The notes beneath the pieces were generated by a model. The model saw nothing but the letters and a program-made list of their open reading frames with translations. It was not told the origin of the DNA and ran no database searches. Below, piece after piece: positions 35,321-57,684 of a stretch of DNA of 64,000 nt. The stretch's first letter is position 1. The number at the start of each line of letters is the position of its first letter. The position numbers were made by a program, and so were the translations under genes. Source of the stretch: Parasulfitobacter algicola (GTDB taxonomy: Bacteria; Pseudomonadota; Alphaproteobacteria; Rhodobacterales; Rhodobacteraceae); contig NZ_JABUFE010000005.1 in the NCBI RefSeq assembly GCF_013315265.1, positions 62,001 through 126,000 on the forward strand, read 5' to 3'.

Positions 35321-35852
35321 GCCCTTGGTTTTGCTGCCGCCATTGGTTTTTGCAGGGTTTGCGGGATTGGTTTTGTTCGGTACGATGCGCGATGATCCAG
35401 ATGCGCTGCCTTCTGCGCGGGTGGGGCAGAGTGCACCGCCACTTGAGATCGCAAAACTTGCGAACAAACCATTGTTTTCGGATGAAGATTTGCGCGGTGA
35501 TGGTGTAAAGCTGGTTAACTTCTGGGCTAGTTGGTGTACGCCTTGCCGTGTTGAGCATCCCAACCTAATGCAACTGGCCGAAGAAGGTATTCCGATATAC
35601 GGGATCAATTATAAAGAGCCGGACAGTGCGGCTGCTTTGAGATTTCTAACGCAACTGGGTGACCCCTATACCGGAATTGGGACTGATATCACCGGGCGGG
35701 ATACGGCCTTGGACTGGGGGGTTTATGGCATACCCGAAACCTATGTTATTGATGTAGACGGCACGATTTTGTTACGCTTTGCAGGTCCAGTGACACAGCG
35801 TGCACTGGCCGAACAAATTCGTCCGGTAATCACAGCGGCGACGCAGCCCTAG
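35313..35852 (+). CDS. ccmG: Thiol:disulfide oxidoreductase CcmG/DsbE
   Basis: A 179-residue membrane-anchored thioredoxin-fold protein facing the periplasm that keeps apocytochrome c thiols reduced. N-terminal anchor LVLLPPLVFAGFAGLVLF, active site WASWCTPCRVEHP, cis-Pro loop YGIPETYVID. GTG start at 35313. Its stop shares CTAG with cckA, which runs in the other direction. The rest of the system (ccmE, F, H) is elsewhere. Confidence 0.95.
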   Translation: MVKPLVLLPPLVFAGFAGLVLFGTMRDDPDALPSARVGQSAPPLEIAKLANKPLFSDEDLRGDGVKLVNFWASWCTPCRVEHPNLMQLAEEGIPIYGINYKEPDSAAALRFLTQLGDPYTGIGTDITGRDTALDWGVYGIPETYVIDVDGTILLRFAGPVTQRALAEQIRPVITAATQP

Positions 35853-38158
35853 GCCAATTGTTTTTGCACCGTTGCAGTCAGTTCTGTCAGTGAAAATGGT
35901 TTTGGCAGGAAAACTGAATTTGCGATCTGCGCCTGATCGTCTGCAAACGAATCCTCGGCATATCCTGAAACAAAGACCACTTTAACATCGGGCCGTTTCT
36001 TTAATGCTTGCTTGACCCAAGTTGGCCCATCAAGACCAGGCATGATCACATCGGTGACAAAAAGATCAATCTGAAGGCTGTCATCTTCCAGAGTGTTAAG
36101 TGCATCTTCGGCACTTTCGGCTTCGATTACGGAATAACCATGCAATTGCAAGGCGCGTGATGCAAAGGCACGAACCGGGGCTTCGTCTTCGACCAGAAGG
36201 ATAATACCTTCGCCTTGCCGTTCCGGGGCTTTCTCGACGCTTTTGGCTTTCGGCATGTCCACAACGGTGGGCTTTTCATGTGCTGGAAAATAAAGTGTAA
36301 ACGTTGTGCCTGATCCGCGAACGCTGTCGACAAAGATAAAACCGCCAGATTGTTTTATAATGCCATAGGCGGTCGAAAGACCCAGACCCGTGCCTTCACC
36401 CGTGCGTTTTGTGGTGTAAAACGGTTCAAAAATCTTAGTTAATTTTTCGGGTGGAATACCGCTGCCATGGTCCGTTACTTTCACGGTGACATAGCTGCCG
36501 GGTGGCACAATAGCGCGGTCACGTTCAAGCGGCTCAGATAAAACGCGTGATTTGGTTTCGATGATAATCTCGCCGCCTTCCGGCATAGCATCACGGGCAT
36601 TTACAACCAGGTTCATTAACACCTGTTCCAGTTGACGCTTATCAGCACGAATGGGTGACAGGCCCATATCGTGCAGCAGTGAAAGTGTGATTTTTTCACC
36701 GACAAGGCGGTTCAATAAATGGGTCAGATCTGCCAATGTATCACGCAGGTCTATGGTTTCAGGCTGCAGATTTTGTTTACGTGAAAAAGCCAGAAGTTGA
36801 CCGACAAGACTGGCCGCTCGATTGGCATTTTGGTTGATCTGGATCAGATCGCCATAATCATGATCGCCCTGATCATGGCGCAATAATAACAGGTCACAAT
36901 GCCCTGAAATTGCTGTCAAAAGGTTGTTGAAGTCATGGGCCACACCGCCCGCCAATTGACCAATGGCCTGCATTTTCTGGCTTTGCACGAACTGCGCCTG
37001 CAGGGTTTTGAATTCGGTCGCATCATTCAGAACGGCAATCAGGACAGGTTGATCATTATCCATGATGCGGCTTAGCGTGATTTGCAGAAATTTTTCCTGT
37101 TCCGCACTTTTGACTTTCAGCACCTCGGCATGGGGTAAGCTGCGCCCTTCCAATGTGTCGGCGATCCAGTCTGTGACGGATCTGCCCAACCCTTCGACCA
37201 GGTCGCTTAACCGCATATCGGCCTTGATTGGTGTATCGAACAGCTGTTGTGCCGATTGGTTGCTGGCCATGATGCTGCCGTTCGAGCTGATCTTCAAAAG
37301 TGGTACGGGCAATGTCTGGAACAAGGCCCAGTTCACATGGCTTTGACTGTCTGCTTTGGCATTTGGCAGTATAAAGACTTCACGACGTCCAGCGGCGCCT
37401 TGGGTTTCGATAATGCGGGCGGATATAAGGCCATTTGCGCCTTCGATTGAATGCAGGCCCCCGGATCTGATAGGCAAGTCGGCAATAATCTTGTTCAGGG
37501 ATTTGGTGCGATGTCCGATGATGTCCTGCATGGCATCATTCATTGATAGAATTGTACCGTGTTTGGTCGCTGTTAGCATGGGTAGATTGATCGCAGACAT
37601 ATTGCGCACAAAGGATGGCGACTCTGCAATTTCTTCGACCCGCCACAGAAAATGACTGTCAGCTAATCTGTGTACAGACAAGCGCATGTGTCCTTGGCGC
37701 GTGATCACATTTTCCTGTGCCGCACCTGCAGTTTGTGCTTTATTCTGTAAGCGGTGCAGCACAGCGGATGCATTTGCGAAATACCGTTTCAGATATCCAG
37801 ATAGTGGTTGTTTTAGCCAATCTTCACCTTCTTGAATGGCAACTTTATTCTGATATTCGACCATGCCTTCGCTGTCTGTTAGATAGCAAAACGCATGATC
37901 GTCCTGCACCATTGATGACACGGAATGGGTGAACTGTCGTTCAGATCGGTATGCAAGAAGCGTTACTGTCCAGATCAGAGTGGTCAGACATAAGAAAACT
38001 CCTGATAACATTGTCGCAATCAAAGACAGGATCGGGTCTTGCAGGAAAACCGCGATGATAACGAAAACGGATCCGGCAAGCAGGATAAACCTTGCCTGGG
38101 GTGAAAGTCGCAGGGCCGCATGTATTATCGGTTGAAGAGAAATTGACTGATCGGCCAA
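35849..38158 (-). CDS. cckA: Hybrid histidine kinase CckA
   Basis: A 769-residue kinase that starts the CckA-ChpT-CtrA relay. In order: two N-terminal helices (20-80), a long PAS region (about 90-390), the H-box GGVAHDFNNLLTAISGH near residue 408, HATPase motifs NARDAMPEGG, DHGSGIPPEKL and TGLGLSTAYGI, then a receiver domain with ILLVEDEAPV and phospho-acceptor Asp in DLFVTDVIMPG. The start codon is TTG at 38158, with AGGAAG 5 bases upstream. A TTAA-N7-TTAA box lies 48 bp upstream. In Roseobacters this relay controls motility, gene transfer agents and c-di-GMP rather than essential cell cycle steps. Confidence 0.94.
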   Translation of the reverse strand: MADQSISLQPIIHAALRLSPQARFILLAGSVFVIIAVFLQDPILSLIATMLSGVFLCLTTLIWTVTLLAYRSERQFTHSVSSMVQDDHAFCYLTDSEGMVEYQNKVAIQEGEDWLKQPLSGYLKRYFANASAVLHRLQNKAQTAGAAQENVITRQGHMRLSVHRLADSHFLWRVEEIAESPSFVRNMSAINLPMLTATKHGTILSMNDAMQDIIGHRTKSLNKIIADLPIRSGGLHSIEGANGLISARIIETQGAAGRREVFILPNAKADSQSHVNWALFQTLPVPLLKISSNGSIMASNQSAQQLFDTPIKADMRLSDLVEGLGRSVTDWIADTLEGRSLPHAEVLKVKSAEQEKFLQITLSRIMDNDQPVLIAVLNDATEFKTLQAQFVQSQKMQAIGQLAGGVAHDFNNLLTAISGHCDLLLLRHDQGDHDYGDLIQINQNANRAASLVGQLLAFSRKQNLQPETIDLRDTLADLTHLLNRLVGEKITLSLLHDMGLSPIRADKRQLEQVLMNLVVNARDAMPEGGEIIIETKSRVLSEPLERDRAIVPPGSYVTVKVTDHGSGIPPEKLTKIFEPFYTTKRTGEGTGLGLSTAYGIIKQSGGFIFVDSVRGSGTTFTLYFPAHEKPTVVDMPKAKSVEKAPERQGEGIILLVEDEAPVRAFASRALQLHGYSVIEAESAEDALNTLEDDSLQIDLFVTDVIMPGLDGPTWVKQALKKRPDVKVVFVSGYAEDSFADDQAQIANSVFLPKPFSLTELTATVQKQLA

Positions 38159-38206
38159 TTGGTCTTCCTTTCAATTCGGGTCATGCGATCTATCGCTGTT
38201 AAGGTA

Positions 38207-38221
38207 TTAAAGATACCTTAA
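38207..38221. promoter_or_regulatory. CtrA-type box upstream of cckA
   Basis: TTAA (38207-38210), seven bases, TTAA (38218-38221) followed by C. It lies inside a perfect palindrome whose 9-bp arms are GTTAAGGTA (38198-38206) and TACCTTAAC (38214-38222). It is 48 bp upstream of the cckA start codon. TTAA-N7-TTAA is the established CtrA recognition sequence. Confidence 0.6.
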
Positions 38222-38255
38222 CTTGGTATGTAATTCTATTAAAGATTGATTTATT

Positions 38256-39416
38256 TTATTTAACTCGCTTTAAGCGGGCGCAATAAAATCCATCTGCGCC
38301 ATCTAAGGGCGTCAAAATCTGTTCACTTTTCACATGCCAATCAAGGTTTTTCGAGGTGAAATCAGTGATTTTCGTCTGGTTTTCAGACATCAGGATTGAA
38401 CAGGTGACATAGATCAAAATGCCATCCGATGATACCAGCGGGTGCGCTATTTCCAGCAACTTGCTTTGTATATCATGCAAGTCGGACAGTGCGTCGGACG
38501 TCAAGCGCCACTTTGCATCAGGGCTACGGCGCCACGATCCGCTGCCCGAACAAGGCGCGTCGATCAAGACCAGATCAAAGGGGGCGTGGTCTGCGATTTC
38601 ATCAGAATCAAGCAATGTGATCGGCGTATCGGCGCGGTCAGCCCTTGGCGCAATATTTTTCAGGCGGTCAGTATTGATATCATGCGCAAACACAGTTGCG
38701 CCAAGGGCTGCCATCGCCAGACTTTTGCCACCACCACCTGCGCAGTAATCCAGCACGCGGCTTGATTTCAGCGGTAAGCCCGCTGTCACAGCTTGACTGG
38801 CGGCATCCTGAAGTTCGACCAGGCCTGCGGCATACGCTTTGCTGTTTTGCACACGGCGGGCATTTTTGGTCACTTGCAGCGCGGTGGAAGCAAGCAAATT
38901 GGGTTTGGTTAGAATATCTTCTTCCTGCAACGCTTTTTGGGCCTGTTCCAATGTCGTTTTATGCAGATTAACCCGCAAGAAAACGGGTGCGCGGGTTTGC
39001 ATCTGGGCGCAAACGGCTTCGAAATCATTGCCCAAACTATCGCGCAGGGCAGGGTGAAGCCATTCTGGCATATCGGCAGTGGGGGGCAATGGACCCGTGG
39101 GCAGATGATCCAGTTCGGCTTGGGTCAAAGCATCGGCGCCATAACCTTGGCTATTAAATATCTGATCCAAGGGAATGTCTGCCGCACGTGTCTGACCAAT
39201 CATCAGACCGCGCCCCTTCAATCCACCCCCCAAATGCGCGAATGTGTTGCGCTGACGTAGGGCGTCAAACACGTGATCCCGCACGGCGGCGCGGTCTTTT
39301 GATCCTGCAAACCGGCTGCCCCGCGCCCATCGGGTCAGGACCTGTTCGGCAGGCATGCCGTCCAAAACCTGGTCAAGAATATCAATTGCGGCAGCGACAC
39401 GGGCAGCGGGGGTCAT
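38256..39416 (-). CDS. rsmB: 16S rRNA m5C methyltransferase RsmB
   Basis: A 386-residue rRNA methyltransferase of the NOL1/NOP2/Sun family (m5C967 in E. coli). The N-terminal NusB-like RNA-binding domain spans about 1-130. The SAM motif is VLDYCAGGGGKSLAMAALG, and the two catalytic cysteines lie in LIDAPCSGSGSWRR and YVTCSILMSEN. It follows the same strand as cckA, with 97 bp between. Other RsmB/RsmF-type family members are possible, but the NusB domain favours RsmB. Confidence 0.88.
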   Translation of the reverse strand: MTPAARVAAAIDILDQVLDGMPAEQVLTRWARGSRFAGSKDRAAVRDHVFDALRQRNTFAHLGGGLKGRGLMIGQTRAADIPLDQIFNSQGYGADALTQAELDHLPTGPLPPTADMPEWLHPALRDSLGNDFEAVCAQMQTRAPVFLRVNLHKTTLEQAQKALQEEDILTKPNLLASTALQVTKNARRVQNSKAYAAGLVELQDAASQAVTAGLPLKSSRVLDYCAGGGGKSLAMAALGATVFAHDINTDRLKNIAPRADRADTPITLLDSDEIADHAPFDLVLIDAPCSGSGSWRRSPDAKWRLTSDALSDLHDIQSKLLEIAHPLVSSDGILIYVTCSILMSENQTKITDFTSKNLDWHVKSEQILTPLDGADGFYCARLKRVK

Positions 39417-42378: not shown

Positions 42379-42393
42379 TTAAGGTTCGCTTAA
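42379..42393. promoter_or_regulatory. CtrA-type box upstream of GGDEF-EAL gene
   Basis: TTAA (42379-42382), GGTTCGC, TTAA (42390-42393). A perfect TTAA-N7-TTAA about 43 bp before the chosen start. A second, off-spaced pair (TTAA-N6-TTAA) lies at 42413-42426 in the leader. Confidence 0.55.
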
Positions 42394-42436
42394 GGAATGC
42401 AATCTAGAGATGTTAAGACTATTTAACGGAGCGCGC

Positions 42437-44842
42437 ATGCAACTTACCGGTTTGTCAGTATTTCTAGGGCAGCTTTCAGACCGGGTGACGGTTGCATTTC
42501 TGGATGCCGGGCGCGGCGTGTCCAAAGATGGTGACATCGGGGACGATGTTCTTGGATCTATTCGCAGTGCACAATATCAGGCGATATTTTCATTGGCTCC
42601 GATGATGATGGCAATCAATATCTTCAACGCTGCAACGCTTATCAGTTTACAATTCATTGTTAATCGCCTGACATTTGGGACGGTCTGTTGGGGACTGGTT
42701 GTTTTAGCCTTTGCGTTACTGACCCTGTCCAAGACTAAACAACTATCGCGTCATAAGGTGCGCAGCTATGCCAGTCCGCGCGGGCCCGGTGCCATTGTTT
42801 TATCTTCGACAATTTTGGCCACGATCTGGACGTATCCTGTTTTGTTTATTTTGCCGGGCGGTGGCGTGACCGAGGTTGCTTTTATCGCAGCCATGACCGC
42901 AGGTATGATCACAGGCGGAGCATTTGCACTATACCCTATTGCCTTGGCTACTTTGTCTTATTTTGCAATTATTTTCGTCGCTGCAGTCGTTGGGTTGTCA
43001 CTAAGCATCGTGGATCCTGTGCTGCCGTTTGTTGCAATGATGACCGCATTTTTTCTTGTTATTTTGTGGTCTAGTACACGGCACACAGGACTGTTTTTAT
43101 CTGAGTTCAAAGGCAAGGTTGAGGCTGTGCGTCAGCGCGATATGATCTCACTTCTGTTAGGGAAATTTCACGAGAACAGTGGATCTTGGCTGTGGCAAAG
43201 TGATAAAAACCTAAAACTTTCTGCGGCGTCTCAACCGCTTTTACGAGCACTTGGGTTTTCGCAAAACATGTCTAACTTGCCGGACATGGCTGCGCTGTTC
43301 AACATGATCTCGGCCGCGGCCAGCAGCGCAAAATATACCGATGTTTTTAATGCCTTAAAAGATAACCCTGATGAATTCAAAGCCAATTACTTTGAGTTGA
43401 AGTTGACGGCGATTGACCTGTTGGGGCGGGAACGCATTCTGATCATCGCTGGCAGCAGGTCTAAGTCTGAACAAGGCATGACACTTGGCTATCACGGCTA
43501 CGTCAAGGACATCACGGATGAGGTTAAAGCCAATGCAAGAGTGCAATATCTTGCCACGCATGACGCCATGACCGGTCTTTTGAATTATACAGAATTTTAT
43601 CGTAAATGCGAAAATCTGTTTGGTGAAAAATACCAGCAAGATACAATCCTCTTTATCTTTGTGGATTCCGATAACCTGAAGTCGATAAATGATAATTTTG
43701 GTCATGCTGTAGGCGATAAAATGATCGAAACAGTCGGGGAAAGGCTGTTTGATATTGTCGGTGAAGACGGTTTGATTGGCCGCAAAGGGGGCGATGAATT
43801 TCTGGTTTGCAAAGGCTTTGATACGATTGAACAGGCGCAGAATTTTGCCAAGAAAACCCATGCGCTTTTGTGCGAAAGTCTTGAGTTTGAGGGTCGTATC
43901 GTGCCGCTGACATGCAGCTTGGGGGTTAGTATATGGCAAGGTGATAGAATAGACATCTCAACGCTTGAACTAGAAGCAGATCGCGCGTTGTATCAGGCCA
44001 AGGCCGGTGGCAAAGCCGGGCTGGAATTTTATGATGCGGATATGGGTGCAGAATTAAGCAAAGAACGTCAGCTTGCCCATGATATCAAAAGTGCCCTTGC
44101 TGGTGATGAGTTATCTTTGGTGTTCCAACCTGCCGTCAAGGTGCAGACCAATCAAATTGCCGGGGCCGAGGCTTTGTTGCGCTGGAACCATCCTGTGTTC
44201 GGCTATATTCGTCCTGATATCATTGTTCGTATTGCTGCCCAAGAAGCATGTAATTTTGAATTGGCGCTTTATGTCATGCAAAAAGCGATTACCGCTGCAA
44301 TGGATTGGCCTGACCATGCCTTTGTATCGGTAAATGTGACCGCCAGCGAAATGCAGGATAGCCGGTTTGCGGGTCATGTCCTTAGCCTGCTTCAACAGAC
44401 AGGTTTCCCTTTTGAGCGTCTTTGCATCGAAATTACCGAGTCTGAAGTGCTTGAAAACACCAGCTCGGCCACAGAAAACCTGCGGCGCTTGCGGCAAGCC
44501 GGTATTTCCATAGCCGTTGATGATTTTGGCGCGGGCTATTCATCACTAAGCTATTTGCATAAATATCCATCCGATTGCGTGAAGGTCGATCGATCTCTTG
44601 TCACCGATTGCCATCTTCGCCCCAACGGCCAGACAATTCTAAGTGCGGTTAATAAGATGATAAAAGCGACCGGATCGCGGATCATTGTCGAAGGCGTTGA
44701 AACGAATGATGAATTGCAAGTTATCACCGCCGCAGGTTTCACTACGGTACAGGGATATATCTTTTACAAGCCGATGGTGGCAAAGGATATTTCAAAGCTT
44801 TTCAATCAGATGCACCAAACTAGGACGGACAATTGTGCCTAG
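42437..44842 (+). CDS. Membrane GGDEF-EAL c-di-GMP enzyme
   Basis: An 801-residue protein. The N-terminal part has about six helices in two groups (residues 35-85 and 115-210), then a degenerate sensor region, a GGDEF domain with intact GRKGGDEF and an EAL domain with intact AGAEALLRW, EITESEVL, VDDFGAGYSS and VEGVET motifs. Both synthesis and breakdown of c-di-GMP look possible. The RxxD inhibitory site before GGDEF is missing. The start at 42437 has GGAG 5 bases upstream; the ATG at 42410 lacks a good site. The stop shares CTAG with zapA. Confidence 0.88.
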   Translation: MQLTGLSVFLGQLSDRVTVAFLDAGRGVSKDGDIGDDVLGSIRSAQYQAIFSLAPMMMAINIFNAATLISLQFIVNRLTFGTVCWGLVVLAFALLTLSKTKQLSRHKVRSYASPRGPGAIVLSSTILATIWTYPVLFILPGGGVTEVAFIAAMTAGMITGGAFALYPIALATLSYFAIIFVAAVVGLSLSIVDPVLPFVAMMTAFFLVILWSSTRHTGLFLSEFKGKVEAVRQRDMISLLLGKFHENSGSWLWQSDKNLKLSAASQPLLRALGFSQNMSNLPDMAALFNMISAAASSAKYTDVFNALKDNPDEFKANYFELKLTAIDLLGRERILIIAGSRSKSEQGMTLGYHGYVKDITDEVKANARVQYLATHDAMTGLLNYTEFYRKCENLFGEKYQQDTILFIFVDSDNLKSINDNFGHAVGDKMIETVGERLFDIVGEDGLIGRKGGDEFLVCKGFDTIEQAQNFAKKTHALLCESLEFEGRIVPLTCSLGVSIWQGDRIDISTLELEADRALYQAKAGGKAGLEFYDADMGAELSKERQLAHDIKSALAGDELSLVFQPAVKVQTNQIAGAEALLRWNHPVFGYIRPDIIVRIAAQEACNFELALYVMQKAITAAMDWPDHAFVSVNVTASEMQDSRFAGHVLSLLQQTGFPFERLCIEITESEVLENTSSATENLRRLRQAGISIAVDDFGAGYSSLSYLHKYPSDCVKVDRSLVTDCHLRPNGQTILSAVNKMIKATGSRIIVEGVETNDELQVITAAGFTTVQGYIFYKPMVAKDISKLFNQMHQTRTDNCA

Positions 44843-56684: not shown

Positions 56685-56699
56685 TTAATTTATTCTTAA
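56685..56699. promoter_or_regulatory. CtrA-type box upstream of rpoH
   Basis: TTAA (56685-56688), TTTATTC, TTAA (56696-56699), then CC. A perfect TTAA-N7-TTAA 20 bp upstream of the putative -35 of rpoH. Confidence 0.5.
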
Positions 56700-56787: not shown

Positions 56788-57684
56788 ATGAGCACATATA
56801 CAAACCTTCCAGCGCCGTCGCCTGAACAGGGCTTGAACCGCTATTTGCAGGAAATTCGCAAGTTTCCGATGCTTGAGCCGGAAGAAGAATACATGCTGGC
56901 CAAGCGATGGGTCGAAGAAGAAGATTCAAGCGCAGCGCACAAAATGGTTACGTCGCACCTGCGTTTGGCCGCCAAAATCGCTATGGGATATCGTGGATAT
57001 GGTTTACCCCAGGCCGAAGTAATATCCGAGGCCAACGTGGGCCTGATGCAGGCTGTCAAACGGTTTGACCCAGAAAAGGGCTTCCGCCTTGCGACCTATG
57101 CGATGTGGTGGATCCGTGCCTCGATCCAGGAATATATTTTGCGCTCATGGTCATTGGTGAAACTTGGCACAACCTCGGCTCAGAAAAAGCTGTTTTTCAA
57201 CCTGCGCAAGGCAAAATCAAAAATCGGAGCTTTGGAAGATGGCGATCTGCGCCCGGAAAATGTGGCCAAAATTGCCCATGATCTGAATGTGACTGAAAAA
57301 GAGGTTATCTCAATGAACCGCCGCTTGTCTGGTGGCGATGCCTCGTTAAATGCGATTGTCGGTTCAGATGGCGAAGGTGCGACGCAGTGGCAGGATTGGC
57401 TGGAAGACGAAGATGCTGATCAGGCTGGCGACTATGCCGAACGCGATGAACTGGACACGCGCCGTGAACTTTTGGCCGAAGCGATGAAGGTTCTGAATGA
57501 CCGCGAGCGCGATATTTTGACCCAAAGACGGCTTCAGGATCAGGTCGTGACATTGGAAGATTTGTCTGGACAATATGATGTCAGCCGCGAACGGATCCGC
57601 CAAATTGAGGTGCGCGCGTTTGAAAAATTACAAAAGCGTATGCGGGACCTTGCAATCGAAAAGGGTGTCCTGACCCGTACATAA
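56788..57684 (+). CDS. rpoH: RNA polymerase sigma factor RpoH (sigma-32)
   Basis: A 298-residue heat-shock sigma factor. Region 2 has RLAAKIAMGYRGYGLPQAEVI and the core-binding RFDPEKGFRLATYAMWWIRASIQEYIL, the RpoH box is QKKLFFNLR at 132-140, and region 4 has DQVVTLEDLSGQYDVSRERIRQIEVRAFEKL. AAAGGGACAAAGAAG precedes the ATG. Many Rhodobacterales have two RpoH proteins; which type this is, I cannot tell. Confidence 0.95.
   Translation: MSTYTNLPAPSPEQGLNRYLQEIRKFPMLEPEEEYMLAKRWVEEEDSSAAHKMVTSHLRLAAKIAMGYRGYGLPQAEVISEANVGLMQAVKRFDPEKGFRLATYAMWWIRASIQEYILRSWSLVKLGTTSAQKKLFFNLRKAKSKIGALEDGDLRPENVAKIAHDLNVTEKEVISMNRRLSGGDASLNAIVGSDGEGATQWQDWLEDEDADQAGDYAERDELDTRRELLAEAMKVLNDRERDILTQRRLQDQVVTLEDLSGQYDVSRERIRQIEVRAFEKLQKRMRDLAIEKGVLTRT

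Follow-up and report, generated by a model that had tools for sequence, protein, structure and literature searches.

The control of cckA by the response regulator that its product ultimately serves has been considered before in the Rhodobacterales. According to Brilli et al. 2010, predicted CtrA sites lie at cckA and divL in the cluster-B Rhodobacterales, where a theoretical feedback was noted (PMC2877005). A CtrA site at cckA is also described for D. shibae, in which a ctrA mutant showed lower cckA expression in stationary phase and unaffected expression in exponential phase (PMC4046655), and a CtrA-cckA feedback loop has been proposed (PMC6473078) and restated (PMC7232146) for this organism. 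In Ruegeria KLH11 a full CtrA site is located 62 bp before cckA, and extra CtrA left a cckA-lacZ fusion unchanged; as cited in the same paper, a ctrA mutant of R. capsulatus had unchanged cckA transcripts and reduced CckA protein (PMC3692519). Two further systems in R. sphaeroides provide reference points. In the CtrA-activated fla2 promoters the transcription start is reported to follow the box after 23 or 24 nt, and the five with mapped starts carry an invariant A at -11 and an invariant G at -4 (PMC6180460). The osp gene encodes an inhibitor of CckA and is activated by CtrA, whose box is situated 54 bp ahead of the osp start codon; its product likewise acts back on CckA (PMC9430884).

Here we describe the corresponding region of Parasulfitobacter algicola, within a window of 64 kb (the whole stretch of DNA analyzed, 64,000 nucleotides). 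As in D. shibae, Ruegeria KLH11 and the cluster-B Rhodobacterales, a CtrA box lies close before cckA and a feedback can be proposed. The locus differs from those of D. shibae and KLH11 in belonging to a new genus and in carrying a palindrome over the box, and the case made for it comes from sequence, whereas expression was measured in the two described systems, with mixed results. The case for the box itself is ordinary and well founded, and the circuit has already been proposed in print.

The rsmB-cckA locus and its CtrA box

The cckA gene occupies positions 35849..38158 of the window on the minus strand and encodes a hybrid histidine kinase of 769 aa. Its TTG start codon, at 38158, is preceded by a stretch resembling a ribosome-binding site (AAAGGAAG, 38164..38171, minus strand), recognized from the sequence itself. 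The upstream neighbour, on the same strand, is an rsmB-like 16S rRNA methyltransferase gene (38256..39416), and the intergenic gap between the two measures 97 bp. HisKA, HATPase_c and Response_reg (receiver) domains are united in the kinase, and CckA models provide its top two NCBIfam matches (528 and 436 bits); both scores fall below the curated 1000-bit cut-off of these models, whose names point to Brucella and Caulobacter. We identify the protein as CckA on the grounds of this best hit, the domain content and the shared rsmB neighbour. The best named relative is found in Pseudaestuariivita rosea, with 72% identity in the best segment, and ctrA itself is encoded in the genome (G000:C66:60865-61536; 432 bits against a model cut-off of 350 bits).

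The box is an exact TTAA-N7-TTAA (TTAAGGTATCTTTAA on the gene strand) at 38207..38221, minus strand, and 48 nt separate it from the TTG start. The motif is as described in the earlier note, which placed it 48 bp ahead of cckA. The window holds three exact occurrences of the motif, against 0.43 expected from shuffles. Genome-wide, TTAA pairs show a mild excess at a spacing of 7 (39 sites, versus a mean of 25.4 over nine other spacings), and the backward-pattern control yields 67 sites versus the 39 of the box. Read on the gene strand, the second TTAA is followed by T in the window and by C in 28 of 43 relatives, so that the window does not present the longer form TTAA-N7-TTAAC on this strand; the opposite strand does read TTAA-N7-TTAAC.

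Conservation of the box and geometry of the putative promoter

The strong evidence that this predicted site is a real CtrA-type box, and no chance match, is its conservation. The comparison started from 61 loci (L016-L076), picked by similarity to the coding DNA or protein of rsmB or cckA and thus constituting a non-random sample. Four of them were unusable (L023, L063, L070 and L071), two were copies of L048 (L046 and L047) and one was the window itself (L016), which left, besides the window, 54 distinct rsmB-cckA loci from the family; L062 and L072, 91% alike, were both retained. Over 360 bases around and after the rsmB stop, 44 of these 54 loci carry the exact box, 9 carry it with a single mismatch and the remaining one (L019) departs from it by three mismatches. 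Conservation in relatives, a check that the earlier note had proposed, was thus borne out. Matches at each of 13 other spacings (2 to 15) were limited to between 0 and 2 of the 54 loci, and 100 dinucleotide shuffles of a 260-base stretch gave a mean of 0.17 and a maximum of 2 loci with the box, versus 43 observed in that same stretch. The box accompanies cckA and not the end of rsmB, since none of eight family genomes having rsmB at this place but no cckA match bears an exact box after it. The genome of L019 (G093) has ctrA, yet the box is absent at that locus.

A conserved direct repeat of this kind might in principle be read by another member of the OmpR family, such as CenR, as the direct repeats bound by regulators of this family have their halves spaced by roughly one helical turn (PMC9275681). 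The R. sphaeroides CenR motif, however, is TGA-N8-TGA (PMC9275681), a difference that speaks against a CenR site here, and TTAA-N7-TTAA is the CtrA motif, also according to ChIP-seq in Hyphomonas (PMC7200025). We regard an OmpR-family reader other than CtrA as scarcely credible.

The sequence downstream of the box is conserved as well. When 45 boxes (the one in the window included) were aligned at their first base, with index positions counted from the box start, T was found at index 18 in 32 and at index 19 in 34 of the 45 sequences, A at index 28 and at index 30 in 29 each, and G at index 35 in 25. Across columns 15-59 in the 43 relatives, A is most frequent at these same indices 28 and 30, with 27 occurrences at each. 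If index 28 is taken as -11, the transcription start falls at index 39, 24 nt after the box, and -4 corresponds to index 35. The agreement with the fla2 geometry is exact, and the window has A, G and a purine at the putative -11, -4 and start places: the A at 38193 lies within a -10-like GATAGA (38189..38194, minus strand), placed by column conservation together with the fla2 geometry (PMC6180460), the G at 38186 would be -4, and the putative start is the G at 38182 on the same strand. With the putative start, the arrangement would share with the fla2 promoters the 23-24 nt between box and start, the A at -11, the G at -4 and the purine start; it differs in that fla2 promoters serve flagellar genes and have had their starts mapped and their sites mutated, whereas the cckA start is proposed from alignment (PMC6180460). 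From the sequence, and by analogy with these promoters, we infer that the box stands in for a -35 element and that cckA is activated by CtrA. No sigma-70-type promoter was found on the cckA strand between 38050 and 38350, as would be expected if CtrA were to replace the -35 element. In the open-access literature consulted, we saw no prior account of a -10 geometry at cckA.

The remaining boxes of the genome show no enrichment of the A/G pair. The 39 sites were reduced to 38 contexts, read on both strands, with the overlapping pairs L012/L013 and L144 scanned once per strand, and both bases were present in 5 of the resulting 76 strand-contexts, the cckA one included. Hence, the pair was not used as a genome-wide filter.

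Taken together, these observations suggest a promoter in the 97-bp gap at which phosphorylated CtrA would bind the direct repeat TTAA-N7-TTAA in lieu of a -35 element, allowing RNA polymerase to start about 24 nt downstream of the box through the weak -10 (GATAGA). In this manner CtrA~P would raise the amount of CckA available; as CckA in turn phosphorylates CtrA through ChpT, the result would be a positive feedback on the relay. We assign a probability of roughly 0.75 to this reading, that is, to activation of cckA by CtrA~P from the -35 position with positive feedback as its outcome; binding of CtrA at the box, activation, and the importance of both in Parasulfitobacter algicola are what we infer from the sequence. 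Weighing against this reading are the T that follows the second TTAA in the window, the lack of A/G enrichment at other boxes, the mildness of the genome-wide excess alongside the 67 sites of the backward-pattern control, the boxless L019 with its ctrA, the lack of consistent box loss where ctrA is missing or damaged, and the unaltered cckA expression seen in KLH11, R. capsulatus and exponential-phase D. shibae. The sign of the proposed loop sets it apart from that of osp, which exerts negative feedback via an inhibitor (PMC9430884). The feedback suggested in the earlier note is probable insofar as the predicted box is conserved with the geometry of an activated promoter and the circuit has been proposed in relatives; the published tests in those relatives disagree.

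In view of this disagreement, CtrA might bind the box yet repress cckA, or leave its expression unaffected under most conditions. The KLH11 reporter was unresponsive to extra CtrA and the R. capsulatus cckA transcript was unchanged without ctrA (PMC3692519), and in Hyphomonas many CtrA-bound genes are reported as unchanged upon inactivation of the relay (PMC7200025). Nonetheless, a box that by the putative start lies near -35 occupies the position of an activator, whereas repressed promoters are reported to have a half site over the -10 (PMC6180460), and cckA expression does drop in the stationary-phase ctrA mutant of D. shibae (PMC4046655), which makes repression or indifference an unlikely alternative to activation. 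A box so strictly conserved is at odds with the lack of a reporter response in Ruegeria KLH11, and this conflict poses a clear, testable question. Should activation hold, most of the Rhodobacteraceae examined would couple the supply of the kinase to what its own relay puts out, through a promoter with a fixed layout, and this would help explain the subpopulation switching of relay-controlled traits like flagella and gene transfer agents.

The inverted repeat overlapping the box

The box is overlapped by a perfect inverted repeat at 38198..38222, a feature with no strand of its own that we judge incidental. The window reads GTTAAGGTATTAAAGATACCTTAAC over these positions, with arms GTTAAGGTAT and ATACCTTAAC pairing perfectly over 10 bp around a 5-nt centre, one pair longer than the 9-bp arms given in the earlier note. 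On the gene strand (38222-38198) the sequence is GTTAAGGTATCTTTAATACCTTAAC, and TTAA-N7-TTAA (38221-38207) is contained in its first 16 bases. TTAA is self-complementary, and the centre of the palindrome falls at box index 11, off the centre of the box.

The same note had put the palindrome forward as a possible site for a symmetric dimer. Developed into a rival explanation, this idea would have it serve as operator for a further regulator, a dimeric one, overlapping the box and the -35/-10 spacer and competing with CtrA: a composite switch, in this genome, in which the dimer covers both elements and shuts down the CtrA-CckA feedback loop, so that a second signal acting at a single 25-bp site could gate the whole relay. 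The perfect 10-bp arms are ideally positioned to block the promoter, and arms of at least 10 bp with loops of 3-12 arose in just 2 of 3000 shuffles of the 97-bp intergenic stretch. LexA, moreover, is described as acting at cckA in R. capsulatus (PMC6473078); no LexA site was seen by eye here. As opposed to the box, however, the palindrome is neither conserved nor present in multiple copies. Perfect arms at its centre reach at most 3 bp in the 44 box-bearing relatives, and the palindrome is absent from the one genus-mate compared, which reads TTAAGGCACTGTTAAGACTTACGG at this place. The search for further copies covered 295 family genomes, the one under study included: the 25-mer is unique in its own genome with up to 3 mismatches allowed, and the 294 others yielded two matches, with 3 mismatches each. 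A palindrome of another kind occurs in three relatives, where its arms, of 8-9 bp, are arranged about the centre of the box.

We know of no binding protein for the palindrome, and the dimer site of the earlier note thus finds no support in the distribution of the repeat, which leaves a second regulator at this promoter a very improbable proposition. As CtrA-type regulators, which are of the OmpR family, recognize direct repeats, CtrA would have no need of the palindrome. Its lack of conservation and of repetition, together with the five placements of perfect 10-bp arms found in the 64-kb window in spite of their rarity per stretch, is the reason for taking it as incidental; it is probably a chance extension of the box, confined to this genome, and it contributes nothing unless a binding protein turns up.

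The inverted repeat could also be conceived as an RNA hairpin, for instance at the end of the rsmB transcript. The folded strand does form a 10-bp stem (-7 kcal/mol for the single-strand DNA fold), but no terminator-like site was found, no T run flanks it on either side and pairing at its centre is not conserved, and a role in RNA therefore appears extremely doubtful. A chance extension of a CtrA-type box remains our preferred account of the repeat.

Boxes in genomes with altered ctrA and elsewhere in this genome

Of 296 genomes, a threshold of E<=1e-45 left 16 without a ctrA match, and a further one (G173) has a weak match only, whose value of 1.5e-46 is at the level of other response regulators. 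For cckA, 16 of these 17 genomes likewise gave no match at E<=1e-60; ctrA and cckA seem to have been lost together in genomes of the family. An exact box is kept in G185, with no ctrA match, before a cckA frame that holds a stop, and in G218, with a short ctrA match. The box has one mismatch in G006, where a short ctrA frame (L159) lies beside a sequence that by eye resembles a transposase, and in G088, where the end of ctrA has been lost (L160). No consistent pattern links damaged or missing ctrA to loss of the box, and few genomes can be compared, since 16 of the 17 are also without a cckA match.

Proteins encoded downstream of boxes in the Parasulfitobacter algicola genome were run against NCBIfam (ten) and against Pfam (ten). 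Two of these boxes are exact and lie in the window. The first, at 56685-56699, precedes by 88 nt the gene for RpoH (sigma-32; 56788-57684); in D. shibae a CtrA site has been reported for rpoH1, whose expression is lower in relay mutants (PMC4046655). A GGDEF-EAL gene (42410-44842) follows the second, at 42379-42393, with its called start a mere 16 nt away; this start may be misplaced, or else the box may act otherwise. Upstream of ctrA (L129 1430-1450), reading by eye shows GTAA-N7-TTAACCAT, a CtrA-like sequence that has a single mismatch and lies some 60 nt ahead of the probable start. Elsewhere, the box TTAACCATAGATTAAC stands 53 nt before a gene (L015 1-1515; 482 aa, cut by the end of the locus) in which PAS domains were the only ones found, a candidate that is possibly a short DivL, and another box is located 44 nt before a gene (L151 1500-3014) for a family-2 glycosyltransferase with an MshEN domain, of the c-di-GMP-binding type.
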